NCBI RefSeq assembly: GCF_003555545.1
Contig: NZ_CP032157.1
Coordinates: forward strand, 5,212,546-5,276,545
Direction: 5' to 3'
DNA: 64,000 nt
Source of the DNA: Paraflavitalea soli
Lineage (GTDB): Bacteria; Bacteroidota; Bacteroidia; Chitinophagales; Chitinophagaceae
Shown: positions 52,405 through 57,734 of the stretch, in pieces
Numbering within the stretch: position 1 is the first letter of the stretch
Layout: every line of letters starts with the position of its first letter
The notes under the pieces: generated by a model
Told to the model about the DNA's origin: nothing
The model's database searches: none
The model's input: only the letters and a program-made list of their open reading frames with translations
Translations under genes and position numbers: made by a program

Positions 52405-53319
52405 TTATTTAAAAATGAATTCGGCGAGATCGATAGGGTCCAGTGGATTATGGATACGTTTATGGTCAAACCAGGTCTCATCGGCCAGCTTCCATTGTTC
52501 CAGTTTTTGCTTCTCCTTCCTGGCCCTCCTGGTTGGTGTACCTCTGGATCTGCGCTGGTACATCCTTTTCAGGCTGCTCATCATATTTTCGGAGATGGTG
52601 AAATAGCTGTATTGATCCAGCCTGATCATCATTTCACTGTCCTCTTCCTCTGTTAAAAAAGCAGGCAATTGCTCATACTGATAACTGGCAAATGTGACTA
52701 TAAAGTCATTGTCCACCATTGTCATGCCAGCCCCTCCGGCAGTAAACCTGTTGTTCTTAAAATAGTTCTCGGTTTTTACATTATCATATTCCCGGTACCG
52801 GGCGATGGCTGTGACCCCAGGCGCAGGTGATGATGGATGAACTGCTGCGGTTTCCGGTAAGGCAGCCGGGATGGTGGTTTGGACCAACTCAGGGGATGGA
52901 TGGGCAGGCGGCCGGTGATTGAAACGGTATATACCCCACCCTGCTATCACCAGGAGCAGTACGGCAGCGATGGCGCCGTAACGTAGGTACAGCTTTCTGA
53001 TGGGTGCGATGGAAGGGGGTGTTTTGCCTTCGCGGGGAGCGGCCTCCCGGAGTATGCGGTCAAATGCGCCCGCGGGTGGTGCAACAACCATTTCCTGTAA
53101 AGCAGCAAACAGAGGGTTTTCTTTAACGGCATTGGCGATGGCCACGGACATAAAAGGAGGTGGCGATACTTCCAGCTCCTGCAGGTTCTGCCAGGCGCCC
53201 AGCCACTGCTGGTCATCTGACCCGGCCTCCAACCTGGCCAGCAGGTTGTGGAATGCCTCCGGCGGAGGTTGTACCTCGTATTCCCGTAGCTTACTCAGTA
53301 TGTCAGATCTGTTCGCCAT
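52405..53319 (-). CDS. Single-pass membrane protein, putative anti-sigma partner
   Basis: The protein has 304 residues. The N-terminal ~115 residues are cytoplasmic and contain three similar short segments (VQPPPEAFHNLLARLE, VSPPFMSVAIANAV, VAPPAGAFDRILRE), an internal repeat. One helix (AIAAVLLLVIAGWGIY, about 133-148) is followed by a Pro-rich linker and a basic C-terminal domain. It overlaps the ECF sigma gene by 17 bases, the typical place of an anti-sigma factor. It has no zinc-binding anti-sigma motif that I can see, so the role is inferred from position. Confidence 0.72.
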   Translation of the reverse strand: MANRSDILSKLREYEVQPPPEAFHNLLARLEAGSDDQQWLGAWQNLQELEVSPPPFMSVAIANAVKENPLFAALQEMVVAPPAGAFDRILREAAPREGKTPPSIAPIRKLYLRYGAIAAVLLLVIAGWGIYRFNHRPPAHPSPELVQTTIPAALPETAAVHPSSPAPGVTAIARYREYDNVKTENYFKNNRFTAGGAGMTMVDNDFIVTFASYQYEQLPAFLTEEEDSEMMIRLDQYSYFTISENMMSSLKRMYQRRSRGTPTRRARKEKQKLEQWKLADETWFDHKRIHNPLDPIDLAEFIFK

Positions 53320-53860
53320 GGGCTTCTTTAAATTGTTTTTGGAGGTACACCCTTGCCCTGAACAACTGTGACCGGCTGCCTTCTTCCGAAATATTCAGCA
53401 GTTCACCTATTTCTTTATGGTTATACCCTTCTACCAGGTATAGGTTGATAACGGTACGGTAGCCATCGGGCATAGCGCTGATGGTCTTCATCAGGTCATC
53501 ATTGGTCAGCTTATCGTACCCATTCAATCCATCAGCTGCAATGTCCATATCATCGCTGATCACTGTAAAAACGGCCTTCTTTTTCTTGATGAAATCAATA
53601 CAGGTTCCCACAAAGATCCTGCGTGCCCACCCCTCGAAGGAACCCTCACCCCTGAAACCGGAAAGGTGCCTGTAAAGTTTTACAAAACCCTCCTGGAAAC
53701 AGTCGTTGGCATCATTGGAATTTCCGGCATAGCGCAGACATAAGCTATACATCCTGCCTGCTATAAGGTCATAGAGTTGTTGAAAGGCCCTGTTATCACC
53801 ATTAGCAGCCTTTTGAGTCAAGACCTCAAAAAGAGGAGGGGCGTTGCGTAGAGGTTCCAT
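53303..53860 (-). CDS. ECF-family RNA polymerase sigma factor
   Basis: The protein has 185 residues. Region 2 (FQQLYDLIAGRMYSLCLRYA, NDCFQEGFVKLYRHLSGFRG, about residues 23-70) and region 4 (SAMPDGYRTVINLYLVEGYN, HKEIGELLNISEEGSRSQLF, about 128-170) are both complete. It is co-transcribed with the overlapping membrane protein. The upstream GATATTTG is a one-mismatch -7 box. Confidence 0.93.
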   Translation of the reverse strand: MEPLRNAPPLFEVLTQKAANGDNRAFQQLYDLIAGRMYSLCLRYAGNSNDANDCFQEGFVKLYRHLSGFRGEGSFEGWARRIFVGTCIDFIKKKKAVFTVISDDMDIAADGLNGYDKLTNDDLMKTISAMPDGYRTVINLYLVEGYNHKEIGELLNISEEGSRSQLFRARVYLQKQFKEAHGEQI

Positions 53861-54435: not shown

Positions 54436-54720
54436 ATGAGTACGAAACTGAGTGGTATGGACCACGCTGATTTTGAAGATGAATTGACGCTGCTGGAAGG
54501 ACTGAAGAATAAAAATATTAAAGCTTTCGCTGCCCTCTACAAAGAATACTCGGAAGACCTGTTGTTATTTGCTTACACGTTAACGGGCGATCCTGCCCTT
54601 TGCCACGAGGTGGTAGACGGTCTATTTATTGAGTTATGGGAAAAAGGGGATTTTACGCAAATAACGCCTCCCATCCATCATTTCCTGTATTCGGAATTGC
54701 GGATCAAATGCAAAAAGTAA
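54436..54720 (+). CDS. Sigma-70 region 2-only small protein
   Basis: The protein has 94 residues from the ATG at 54436. LLEGLKNKNIKAFAALYKEY (about residues 18-37), LLLFAYTLTGDPALCHEVVD and GLFIELWEKGDFTQ (about 60-73) match sigma-70 region 2 of ECF factors. The chain ends at SELRIKCKK, just where region 2 would join the linker to region 4. No region 4 lies downstream in any frame. It is thus either a stand-alone region 2 or a remnant. Clean flanking structure and an immediately following regulator argue for a functional unit. Confidence 0.7.
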   Translation: MSTKLSGMDHADFEDELTLLEGLKNKNIKAFAALYKEYSEDLLLFAYTLTGDPALCHEVVDGLFIELWEKGDFTQITPPIHHFLYSELRIKCKK

Positions 54721-54732
54721 CAAACCGGCTGT

Positions 54733-54780
54733 ACTACATGATAATGTAGTGGGCGCTTTTGTTTTGTTGTCTTACTTTTA
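54733..54780 (+). promoter_or_regulatory. Palindromic operator and promoter of the response regulator gene
   Basis: ACTACATGATAATGTAGT (54733-54750) has perfect ACTACAT/ATGTAGT arms. After 22 bases comes TACTTTTA (54773-54780), a -7 box with one mismatch. There is no TTG at -33; the palindrome takes that place. The ATG at 54789 is nine bases beyond the box. A matching site lies at 55429-55450. Confidence 0.7.
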
Positions 54781-54788
54781 ATTTGCTA

Positions 54789-55424
54789 ATGGCGGTAAAG
54801 ATCCTATTATACGACGACAATGAAGCACTGCGGCAAAGCATGGAAACCTTGTTGGGAGAAGAGCCTGACCTGGAATTCATAGCGGGCATCCCCAATGCGG
54901 AAACGGTGGAAACGGATGTCCGGGAACTGAAACCTGAGGTAGTGCTGATGGACATCGACATGCCGGGGGTGAATGGGGTGGAAGCGGTGCGGCGGATCCG
55001 CCGGATCGATGCACAGCTTCCGATCATTATGCTGACTGTTTTTGATGACAACGAAAACATCTTCCGCGCCATTTGTGCGGGGGCCAGTGGTTATATCTTA
55101 AAGCGCTATGCTTCTATAGAAGTTCCTTCAGCTATCCGTAATGTACTGACAGGTGGTGCGCCTATGACTGGTTCGGTGGCGCGTAAGGTATTGCTGATGA
55201 TACCGCCCGCGCACAACAGTGACCAGGAGAAAACGGACCTTTCGGAAAAAGAGATCAGCATACTTCAATTACTGGTGCAGGGGTTCAGTTATAAAATGAT
55301 CGCCGCCCAACTCAAGATCAGTCACGATACGGTTCGCTTCTATATAAAGAAGATCTACGACAAGCTGCACGTACATTCAGCTACAGAAGCGGTTTCGAAA
55401 GCCATTAAGGATGGCCTGGTCTGA
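54789..55424 (+). CDS. NarL/FixJ-type response regulator
   Basis: The protein has 211 residues from the ATG at 54789. The receiver domain (about 1-120) has the acidic pair in LLYDDNEALRQ, phospho-Asp in VVLMDIDMPGVNGVEAV (about residue 55) and Lys in GYILKRYAS (about 105). The C-terminal LuxR HTH (about 148-205) has LSEKEISILQLLVQGFSYK and LKISHDTVRFYIKKIYDKL. No kinase gene is adjacent. It is flanked by two related palindromes that are likely its binding sites. Confidence 0.93.
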   Translation: MAVKILLYDDNEALRQSMETLLGEEPDLEFIAGIPNAETVETDVRELKPEVVLMDIDMPGVNGVEAVRRIRRIDAQLPIIMLTVFDDNENIFRAICAGASGYILKRYASIEVPSAIRNVLTGGAPMTGSVARKVLLMIPPAHNSDQEKTDLSEKEISILQLLVQGFSYKMIAAQLKISHDTVRFYIKKIYDKLHVHSATEAVSKAIKDGLV

Positions 55425-55428
55425 TGTT

Positions 55429-55477
55429 TTACTACATGATCATGTAGTAAATTCTTCTTTTCGGCAGAGTAGTTTTG
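55429..55477 (+). promoter_or_regulatory. Perfect palindrome and promoter of the exported-protein gene
   Basis: ACTACATGATCATGTAGT (55431-55448) is a perfect 18-base palindrome, extended by TT and AA to 22 bases (55429-55450). After 21 bases from the core comes TAGTTTTG (55470-55477), an exact -7 box. There is no -33 TTG. The layout matches that of 54733-54780. Confidence 0.75.
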
Positions 55478-55495
55478 GGTAAAATAGTAACTGCA

Positions 55496-56140
55496 ATGAA
55501 ACAACTACTCACCTTCCTCCTCCTGTTATCATCCCTGATCAGCAAAAGCCAGAATGTAGGCATCGGTATTCCCAATCCACTTTACAAACTGGATGTATGG
55601 AGCCCTGAATCTTTTGTAGCGCGTTTTAACGGCGCTGCCAATATGTACCTGGCTATCTATGAGACGAATGTTTACCGGGGTTATATTGGTTCTTTTGCCG
55701 GCAGTCCAGAAGATGTGGATTTTGGAACAGGCTTCGGCAATGCCACCGGCAAAGTGCATCTAACCATCCAGGGAACGCCGATGCTTACGGTAAACAGCAC
55801 AGGGAGTATAGATATTACCAATGAGTTGACCCGCACAAGCAAGACAGGCACAGCCAACCTGCTGCCAATTGCCTATGGCAATGTAAGTTCAACGGGCTTC
55901 GCAAACACTGGCAGTGGCAATTTCACGGTATCGCATACTTCAACAGGCTTTTACGAGATCACCATTACGGGTGAAAATTACCAGTTTCAGCAATACATCA
56001 CGGTGGTGACGCCCATTGGCACCATCGCTCCCATCATTGCAGCTACGGGCAGCGGCGCAGGAAAGCTGCAGGTGAGCACGTATAACATTACCGGTGCAGA
56101 TACGGATAGCAACTTCCACTTTGTAGTGTATAAACCATAA
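55496..56140 (+). CDS. Exported tail-fibre-like protein
   Basis: The protein has 214 residues from the ATG at 55496; a TTG at 55475 lies in the -7 box. The signal peptide ends near ISKSQN (about residue 18). NVGIGIPNPLYKLDVWSPES (about 18-37) is the N-terminal phrase found in Bacteroidota exported proteins related to phage-tail fibres and endosialidase-chaperone proteins. The rest is Gly/Thr/Ser-rich beta-type sequence. No intramolecular chaperone domain is seen at the C-terminus. It is probably a surface or secreted protein. Confidence 0.7.
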   Translation: MKQLLTFLLLLSSLISKSQNVGIGIPNPLYKLDVWSPESFVARFNGAANMYLAIYETNVYRGYIGSFAGSPEDVDFGTGFGNATGKVHLTIQGTPMLTVNSTGSIDITNELTRTSKTGTANLLPIAYGNVSSTGFANTGSGNFTVSHTSTGFYEITITGENYQFQQYITVVTPIGTIAPIIAATGSGAGKLQVSTYNITGADTDSNFHFVVYKP

Positions 56141-56207: not shown

Positions 56208-57734
56208 ATGAGTAAGCAAACCTTCATTACTGGCATCCTTGTAATTGGCATGCTGAAAGGCTATACGCAGATAACGGTCCAGTCTGGCGCTGCGGTGTAT
56301 ATTCAGGCTGGCGCCAATGTTACTATAGAAGGGGATATCCTGCTAGGCGATGGCAGCAACCTGGTGAATGATGGAACGATACGGATTGGCAATAGCAGCG
56401 GGATTGGCTCAGCCTTTACGGATAACACGGTTACGGGTTATCTGTATGGTAATGGCAGCTTTATTTTTAACAGTACGAGCAATCAATCGCTCAGCAGCTC
56501 CAATGCCTTTGGACGTATTGATGTGGACGGCAGCAGTCTTATGCTTGGCAGCAATATCATTTCCAATAAATGGTATCTGATAAAGGGTATTATACATACG
56601 GGCTCTTTTATGGCGGTGACGCCGGCCAACGCTCAACTGGCGATAGAGGCGGATGCCAGTAATCCCAATTTCAGCAATGGCTGGTTCAACGGCACCTTAC
56701 GGCGTACGGTAAGCCCTGCTACGGTCAACAGTTATGTTTTCCCGGTAGGCAATACGACTCAACCGCATCTGGCAGTATTGAGCAATCTAACGGCTAATGC
56801 ACTGAACAATGTAACCTATATCGATGCTTCCTTTGGGCCCAAAGCCGGAACGGATGCCGGCCTGCTGGTTACAGAGCAGGGATCGGCCTACGTAAGCATC
56901 CACAATGGCGGCGTCTGGCACCTTACGCCCAATGCTGCTCCTTCTGCAGGCAAGTACAACCTTACCTTATACCTGAATGGATTTGCGAGCCTGGCAGACA
57001 ACCAGTTTACGATCCTGCGCAGGCCGGAAGGATCTACGAACGGAGCGGACTGGTCGGTACCGGCAGGCAGTACGGTCAATGCCAATGGAGGAGCTGGCCG
57101 CTTAGCGGCACAAGGCTATGCTATCCGGAATAACCTGGGGGGCTTCAGTGAATTTGGTATCGGTCTATTATCTACGGCATTGCCGGTACGCCTCACCAAT
57201 TTCAATGTAAGGCGTCTGACGATCAGTAATGTGCAGGTGAGCTGGCAAACACAAACGGAACAAAACAATAAAGGGTTTGATATCGAGCGCAGGCTGGACA
57301 ATGAAACGAATTTTGTTTCAAAAGGATTTGTGGCTTCGCAGGCATCCAATGGCAATAGTACGGTGGCGCTTGATTATTCGTTTGCAGATGGCAATGCTTA
57401 TAAAGGGGTAAGCTATTACCGCCTGCGGCAGGTTGACCTGGACGACAGGGCCTATTATTCGCTGATAAAGGCCGTGCGGGGTGAAACGAGTGTCAATGTG
57501 CTCATCTGGCCCAATCCGAATGAAGGGCAATTCAGCATACGGCTGGAAGGGGTAGATGGCCAGAAAGAAGCGCAGATCATGGACCTCCATGGCAAGCTTG
57601 TTCAAAAAATAAGGATCAAAGGCACGCAACAGGTAAACATACGCCAGTTACAATCCGGCACTTATATACTCTCTATTCCCGACGCATTTGGACCCGGCGC
57701 TCATTTTAAGGAAAAAGTAATGGTGGTACGGTAG
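56208..57734 (+). CDS. Secreted protein with type IX sorting domain
   Basis: The protein has 508 residues from the ATG at 56208. A signal peptide ends near KGYTQIT (about residue 22). A repetitive beta-rich region (about 25-330) follows, then a fibronectin-like part (about 345-420, VRLTNFNVRRLTISNVQVSW). The C-terminal domain (about 430-508, VNVLIWPNPNEGQFSIRLEG, LQSGTYILSI) is a type A T9SS sorting signal. It is probably attached to or released from the cell surface. It is likely co-transcribed with the exported protein 67 bases upstream. Confidence 0.88.
   Translation: MSKQTFITGILVIGMLKGYTQITVQSGAAVYIQAGANVTIEGDILLGDGSNLVNDGTIRIGNSSGIGSAFTDNTVTGYLYGNGSFIFNSTSNQSLSSSNAFGRIDVDGSSLMLGSNIISNKWYLIKGIIHTGSFMAVTPANAQLAIEADASNPNFSNGWFNGTLRRTVSPATVNSYVFPVGNTTQPHLAVLSNLTANALNNVTYIDASFGPKAGTDAGLLVTEQGSAYVSIHNGGVWHLTPNAAPSAGKYNLTLYLNGFASLADNQFTILRRPEGSTNGADWSVPAGSTVNANGGAGRLAAQGYAIRNNLGGFSEFGIGLLSTALPVRLTNFNVRRLTISNVQVSWQTQTEQNNKGFDIERRLDNETNFVSKGFVASQASNGNSTVALDYSFADGNAYKGVSYYRLRQVDLDDRAYYSLIKAVRGETSVNVLIWPNPNEGQFSIRLEGVDGQKEAQIMDLHGKLVQKIRIKGTQQVNIRQLQSGTYILSIPDAFGPGAHFKEKVMVVR

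Follow-up and report, generated by a model that had tools for sequence, protein, structure and literature searches.

A NarL-type response regulator of Paraflavitalea soli is predicted to act at four promoters through palindromic operators placed 21-22 bases ahead of the -7 box

In the window, the whole 64,000-nucleotide stretch of DNA analysed here, a NarL/FixJ-type response regulator gene is flanked by two palindromic operators, each followed at nearly the same distance by a -7 box, and exact copies of the operator precede two further genes elsewhere in the genome. An earlier note on this DNA had proposed that the regulator activates its own gene and the exported-protein gene through these sites, and this reading is supported by the phasing of the sites, their conservation, their co-occurrence with the regulator and their variation with the recognition helix. 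From the sequence, we predict with high confidence that the regulator binds these palindromes, and we consider it likely that its effect there is activation, in the manner of NarL at napF; the preference for activation over repression is drawn from the operator position and the missing -33 element. The regulator is a further member of the NarL/FixJ family with an unusual operator pattern, and its four-promoter regulon is readable from one genome and checkable against relatives. The features concerned are as follows.

54733..54750, plus strand: operator 1, 18-mer ACTACATGATAATGTAGT with one mismatched palindrome pair, in the regulator promoter
54773..54780, plus strand: -7 box TACTTTTA of the regulator promoter, 22 bases past operator 1
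54789..55424, plus strand: NarL/FixJ-type response regulator of 211 aa (Pfam Response_reg and GerE; solved relatives)
55428..55451, plus strand: operator 2, a perfect 24-bp palindrome containing the 18-mer ACTACATGATCATGTAGT at 55431-55448
55470..55477, plus strand: -7 box TAGTTTTG of the exported-protein gene promoter, 21 bases past the 18-mer
55496..56140, plus strand: target gene for a 214-aa exported protein without a Pfam match above the cut-off
56208..57734, plus strand: next gene, with a Por_Secre_tail domain (type IX secretion signal)
L005:3098-4411, minus strand (G000:C1:4573097-4574410): OmpA-domain protein gene, preceded by the third exact site
L006:4672-5253 (G000:C1:7163671-7164252): collagen-like protein gene (Collagen match under the Pfam cut-off), preceded by the fourth exact site

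The regulator gene starts at 54789, as the earlier note had it, with an ATG, and its product matches Response_reg at 82.7 bits and GerE at 63.6 bits, both exceeding the Pfam cut-off; no LuxR-type autoinducer-binding domain was present among the nine Pfam matches listed. Across 10 aligned orthologues and relatives, the receiver residues D10, D55, T83 and K105 are invariant and D9 is nearly so, and we take these to be the phosphorylation-site residues of the receiver. VraR, DevR and NarL are among the best solved relatives, with VraR and DevR matching over nearly the full length and the NarL structure 1a04 matching residues 4-202 (E 3e-24). The likeness to VraR and DevR/DosR, which consists in this near-full-length structural match, concerns the proteins only; LiaR-type regulators are grouped with these two on the basis of a literature excerpt.

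Both 18-mers lie where they had been reported, at 54733-54750 and 55431-55448. Operator 2 is a perfect palindrome, as claimed, and is longer than the 22 bases then given, measuring 24 bp (55428-55451) and starting just past the regulator stop codon. Compared by eye with the NarL 7-2-7 site, its dyad consists of inverted heptamers with two bases between them, CTACATG-AT-CATGTAG (within 55431-55448), and in the window sequence the operator arms have neither a loop nor a following T-run. A scan of the window allowing up to 3 mismatches returned 4 strand matches against 0.04 expected, a number reached in 0 of 100 shuffles. These matches fall in two places only, which agrees with the claim that the window holds no third copy; two more copies lie elsewhere in the genome.

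Besides its -7 box, the Bacteroidota sigma-A promoter has a -33 TTG element. This TTG had been described as missing, and it is absent from the operator downstream edge in both promoters; the gaps of 22 and 21 bases between operator and box were likewise recovered. In the excerpted text of PMC9723704, the Bacteroidota -7 box has the consensus TAnnTTTG and spans -12 to -5; TAGTTTTG agrees with it exactly and TACTTTTA deviates in the last base. If the -7 box is taken as -12 to -5, the 18-mers fall at -52 to -35 and -51 to -34, and the operator centres at -43.5 in the regulator promoter and -42.5 in the exported-protein promoter. Transcription is predicted to start near 54785 for the regulator and near 55482 for the exported-protein gene, and the gene at 56208..57734 possibly forms one operon with the latter, judging from strand and closeness. 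A structure model of the 214-aa exported protein was poor (mean pLDDT 38.6, two sequences).

Over the 8,443,189 bases of the window's genome (G000 in our genome numbering), CTACAT-N4-ATGTAG occurs in exactly four copies, two in the window and two far away, and TAnnTTT follows all four at 21 or 22 bases. The genome-wide motif search, a check set beforehand, thus found exact sites only ahead of -7 boxes at 21-22. Among one-mismatch sites in the genome, 0 of 11 have a box at 18-25, and in one a box stands at 26. When exact and one-mismatch sites are pooled, there are 15 per strand vs 18 with the reversed control, so that only the exact sites stand out. The background rate of TAnnTTT, per position, is 0.0015 over four stretches of the genome and 0.004 upstream of regulators, and with so low a rate a box at 21 or 22 in both of the sites that had not set the rule is very unlikely to be due to chance. 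Besides the regulator, the operator-bearing genes look exported (the 214-aa protein, the OmpA-domain protein and the collagen-like protein; signal peptides judged by eye), and a role of the regulon at the cell surface is likely.

Compared across orthologous loci, as the earlier note had suggested, the sites are conserved and the spacer mostly is not. In three congeners with regulators 91-96% identical to the window's (the figure for locus L054 is 96%), each operator keeps 16 of 18 bases invariant over the four species, both -7 boxes are conserved and TAGTTTTG is invariant in all four, and most spacer bases around the operators and boxes differ. Orthologues of the 214-aa protein, 64-69% identical, occupy the same place in the three congeners. 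On a wider scale, 14 of 195 family genomes contain an exact copy of the 16-mer CTACATGATNATGTAG and 2 contain its reversed control. Of the 195, 11 encode an orthologue of the regulator at 69% identity or more (the next best match being 50%), and the exact site occurs in 8 of these 11 vs 6 of the 184 others (Fisher p 1e-8). By our tally, the orthologue-bearing genomes have 18 exact sites, 17 of them followed by TAnnTTT at 20-23, vs 1 of 8 elsewhere; since 7 of the 8 exact sites in orthologue-lacking genomes are boxless, the 16-mer alone is not diagnostic. The lone boxed site elsewhere (G058, L028) precedes another regulator, whose helix also reads TVRFYI. In G178, a regulator whose helix has Y in place of this F is preceded by a one-mismatch site and followed by an exact site, both with near-consensus boxes at 21-22 (boxes by eye).

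Several loci depart from this arrangement. Of the three orthologue-bearing genomes that have no exact site, G102 and G163 carry one-mismatch sites ahead of the regulator, that of G163 without a box, and the G048 contig starts 27 bases upstream of the regulator, with two near-sites further down. The TAnnTTT box was not found in the two promoters of G170 or the regulator promoter of G163, the regulator box of L055 is off consensus, and in L058 (G100) the operator lies 180 bases upstream of the assigned start. Locus L061 has an F helix and an adjacent kinase, yet no operator was found there. At least one of the boxless exact sites in orthologue-lacking genomes, that in L014, is kinase coding sequence (by eye). 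In the 13 plasmid records, the only regulator homologues are below 60% identity. Loci L010 and L011 (in G192 and G031, which lack a regulator orthologue) share an exact palindrome in nearly identical sequence context, with no -7 box in either orientation.

Paralogous regulators of about 50% identity also have operators at this place, with different outer bases. With a match in 7 or more of 8 bases and a box at 20-23 required, ACAT/ATGT ranked best of the 256 four-base half-sites, occurring in 40 of 98 upstream regions (the average half-site scored 0.47); these 98 exclude L056, in which only 27 bases of contig precede the gene, and L049, which has a shifted start. When boxes were allowed at 16-29, 16 regions had one, all at 20-24 and, in 13 of these regions, solely at 21 or 22. 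When boxes were sought at 20-23 only, with 15 of L205-L221 added (L207, a contig end, and L208, at the place of L058, being left out), the spacing was 22 in 39, 21 in 8 and 20 in 2; some rows duplicate a genome region that was found in two ways (L035/L054 and L059/L211, for example). Motif-like paralogue hits at about -616 to -663 were discarded as coding sequence of the kinase LHDD motif (by eye).

The outer bases vary with residue 184 of the regulator. In a tally of 99 rows, with identical proteins removed and four operator profiles applied to every region whatever its helix, operator bases 16-17 (+7/+8 from the dyad) were AG in 13 and GG in 3 for F at 184; GA in 37, GG in 17, AG in 4, TA in 3 and CA in 1 for S; TA in 17 and GA in 2 for T; TA in 1 for A; and GA in 1 for E. 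When the 211 alignment columns are ordered by mutual information over the same rows, position 184 comes 2nd after entropy normalisation and 5th on the raw values. A tree-based test of independent co-variation gave two supported pairs each for F and T and was not significant; because it had too few independent cases, the relation between residue and operator is a clade-level association. A small S clade (L039, L066 and L073) is nested in the F clade, and the operators of L039 and L066 end in GGGAT and GGCAT, which fits the helix relation; none was found for L073. In its own genome, the window's regulator is the only one with F at 184 among the 22 related regulators looked at (of 23 related matches, one receiver-only match was left out; most helices were read by eye).

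The promoters of these paralogues also differ in the -33 region. TTG stands at the operator downstream edge in 27 of 46 rows of S-type regulator promoters with spacing 22; for F-type regulator promoters (spacing 21-22), the count is 1 of 12. The F-type regulator promoters, the window's included, thus have no -33 element and look activator-dependent. Several F-type target promoters carry GTAGTTG at the operator edge, so the missing -33 element is not general across the regulon. In T-type regulator promoters (L084, L090, L093, L095, L101 and L045), the boxes are often TAnnTTGC, not TAnnTTTG, similar to the SM5 motif TAnnTTGY of Flavobacterium psychrophilum in the excerpts of PMC9723704.

In G195 and other genera, the gene order is a kinase of about 740 aa, the regulator, and then commonly an exported protein, OmpA/LamG-like or other. 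In the one such kinase scanned, the linked P0002 of G195, TPR, HisKA_3 and HATPase_c were present. The kinase TGA falls within the regulator operator in the 8 loci examined. Across the 102 operators assigned among 113 regulator rows, a frame of at least 150 codons stops at operator base 7 in 47 (mostly ACA TGA or ACA TAA), three frames stop elsewhere inside, and 52 operators have no frame ending there; because the consensus itself contains TGA/TAA, chance alone would end roughly one in three of the frames that enter it at this base. In G000, G162, G085 and G196, the kinase is absent from the regulator locus. All four have a same-family kinase, 39-41% identical to that of G195 and 47-48% to that of G170, behind a phosphoglycerate kinase-like gene (named by eye) and with no regulator found within about 4 kb. 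This unlinked HisKA_3-family kinase (G000:C1:4971276-4973453 in the window's genome) is the candidate partner of the regulator.

One target has moved as well. The OmpA-domain gene lies beside the regulator in G195 (79% identity) but is unlinked in G000 and G085 (81%), where it keeps the exact operator; the site before it in G195 is degenerate, with a box at 22 (by eye), and G162 and G196 have only 37-38% homologues. Two other genes bear the operator in G162, both encoding exported NHL-repeat-like proteins (named by eye), and in G021 a DUF3108_like gene follows the regulator. As species carry differing targets, the operator-promoter unit persists while target genes change. The regulon can thus be seen coming apart, with the kinase and one target elsewhere and the operator remaining with each promoter. 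Downstream of the regulator in G021 there is also a Thiol_cytolysin match (92.5 bits, L138:12365-14095), and ORFs of the Thiol_cytolysin cluster lie downstream of the regulator in L139 and L055 as well.

Cumulatively, these observations lead us to propose that a regulator dimer, presumably phosphorylated by the unlinked sensor kinase, would bind the inverted heptamers (7-2-7) centred 42.5-43.5 bases upstream of the start, at the place of the missing -33 element, and would recruit RNA polymerase to a promoter that has a -7 box only. The regulator would in this way raise its own expression and switch on three further promoters, those of the adjacent exported-protein gene, the OmpA-domain gene and the collagen-like gene. 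Site position and dyad geometry fit a NarL-type activator. All evidence for binding would apply equally if the same regulator repressed from the same sites, with a dimer at -52 to -34 blocking RNA polymerase in negative autoregulation, and NarL too represses some promoters, e.g. frdA, via a site near the transcription start (excerpts of PMC4549865). We nevertheless hold repression to be unlikely, since the missing -33 TTG (present in 1 of the 12 F-type promoters with a box at 21-22) suggests activator dependence, and the box spacing is held at 21-22, a position from which NarL activates according to the same excerpts.

Two other accounts deny the regulator this part altogether. Binding by the regulator is predicted from sequence and 2 of the 4 sites lie away from its gene, as would be expected if another transcription factor bound the palindromes and the regulator gene were merely one of its targets. 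Against this, the sites co-occur with the regulator over 195 genomes, they stand at the regulator's own promoter in other genera, and operator variants go with its recognition helix, which makes such a factor very improbable. It is scarcely credible that the palindromes lack a regulatory role and represent a repeat element, a terminator or a coincidental pair. The second copy does lie just after the regulator stop codon, a possible place for a terminator, but its arms are loopless and no T-run follows; the genome has four copies only, all phased to -7 boxes, the sites are conserved islands within diverged spacers, and 0.04 matches were expected in the window. On copy number, phasing and conservation, we rejected the chance, repeat and terminator readings.

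The preferred reading, binding with activation, has its closest parallel in E. coli NarL at napF and yeaR, which NarL activates from 7-2-7 sites spanning -40 to -49 and -38 to -47, respectively (excerpts of PMC4549865): the family is the same, the dyad is 7-2-7 and the site is centred near -43. Unlike NarL sites, whose heptamers resemble TACCCCT (the excerpts give the engineered palindrome TACCCCTAAAGGGGTA with this heptamer), the operator described here has the heptamer CTACATG. It also differs in standing at a promoter of the Bacteroidota kind without a -33 element and, in relatives, in overlapping the kinase stop codon. A NarL-like GGGTA half-site was found only in the operators of T-type paralogues, where, by eye, it is as far from the dyad as in the excerpted engineered NarL site. 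Within the phylum, operators have been predicted too for the hybrid two-component systems of Bacteroides (excerpts of PMC3878776), and FimS/FimR of Porphyromonas gingivalis is, according to published abstracts, a two-component system controlling surface structures, namely fimbriae; those abstracts showed no operator of the present kind. In the full-text literature searched, we found no description of such an operator for a NarL-type Bacteroidota regulator, and no precedent for the operator sequence, the overlap with the kinase stop or the helix-operator relation.

A general wiring rule for NarL-type regulators in Bacteroidota may lie behind these patterns, and we regard the chances for and against it as evenly balanced. 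Under this rule, the operator would be built into the end of the kinase gene, with the last kinase codon (often Thr, ACA) and the stop (TGA/TAA) forming the left half-site; it would stand 21-22 bases ahead of the -7 box; and residue 184 would be matched to the outer base pairs, with F or Y, S and T corresponding to AG, GA and TA at +7/+8. If the rule is true, the operators and regulons of many uncharacterised regulators would be readable from sequence, and regulons would be traceable as genes move, because operators travel with target genes. If the helix-operator relation holds, it would offer a testable way of assigning regulons across the phylum.

Some further observations concern neighbouring sequences and paralogues. 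A 94-aa ORF at 54436-54720 ends 12 bases short of operator 1, at the position of the kinase in relatives. Its only match is a weak one to sigma-70 region 2 (E 0.017, under the Pfam cut-off), G162 carries a similar ORF, and it may be what is left of an ECF sigma gene. On the minus strand at 53303-53860, the ORF list shows what looks by eye like a complete gene for an ECF-type sigma factor, adjoined by a 304-aa ORF on the same strand. In a regulator clade with the helix VRSHV (L047, L048, L050, L051 and L131), GGGGAT-like half-sites occur at the same distance from the gene start and possibly represent another operator class.
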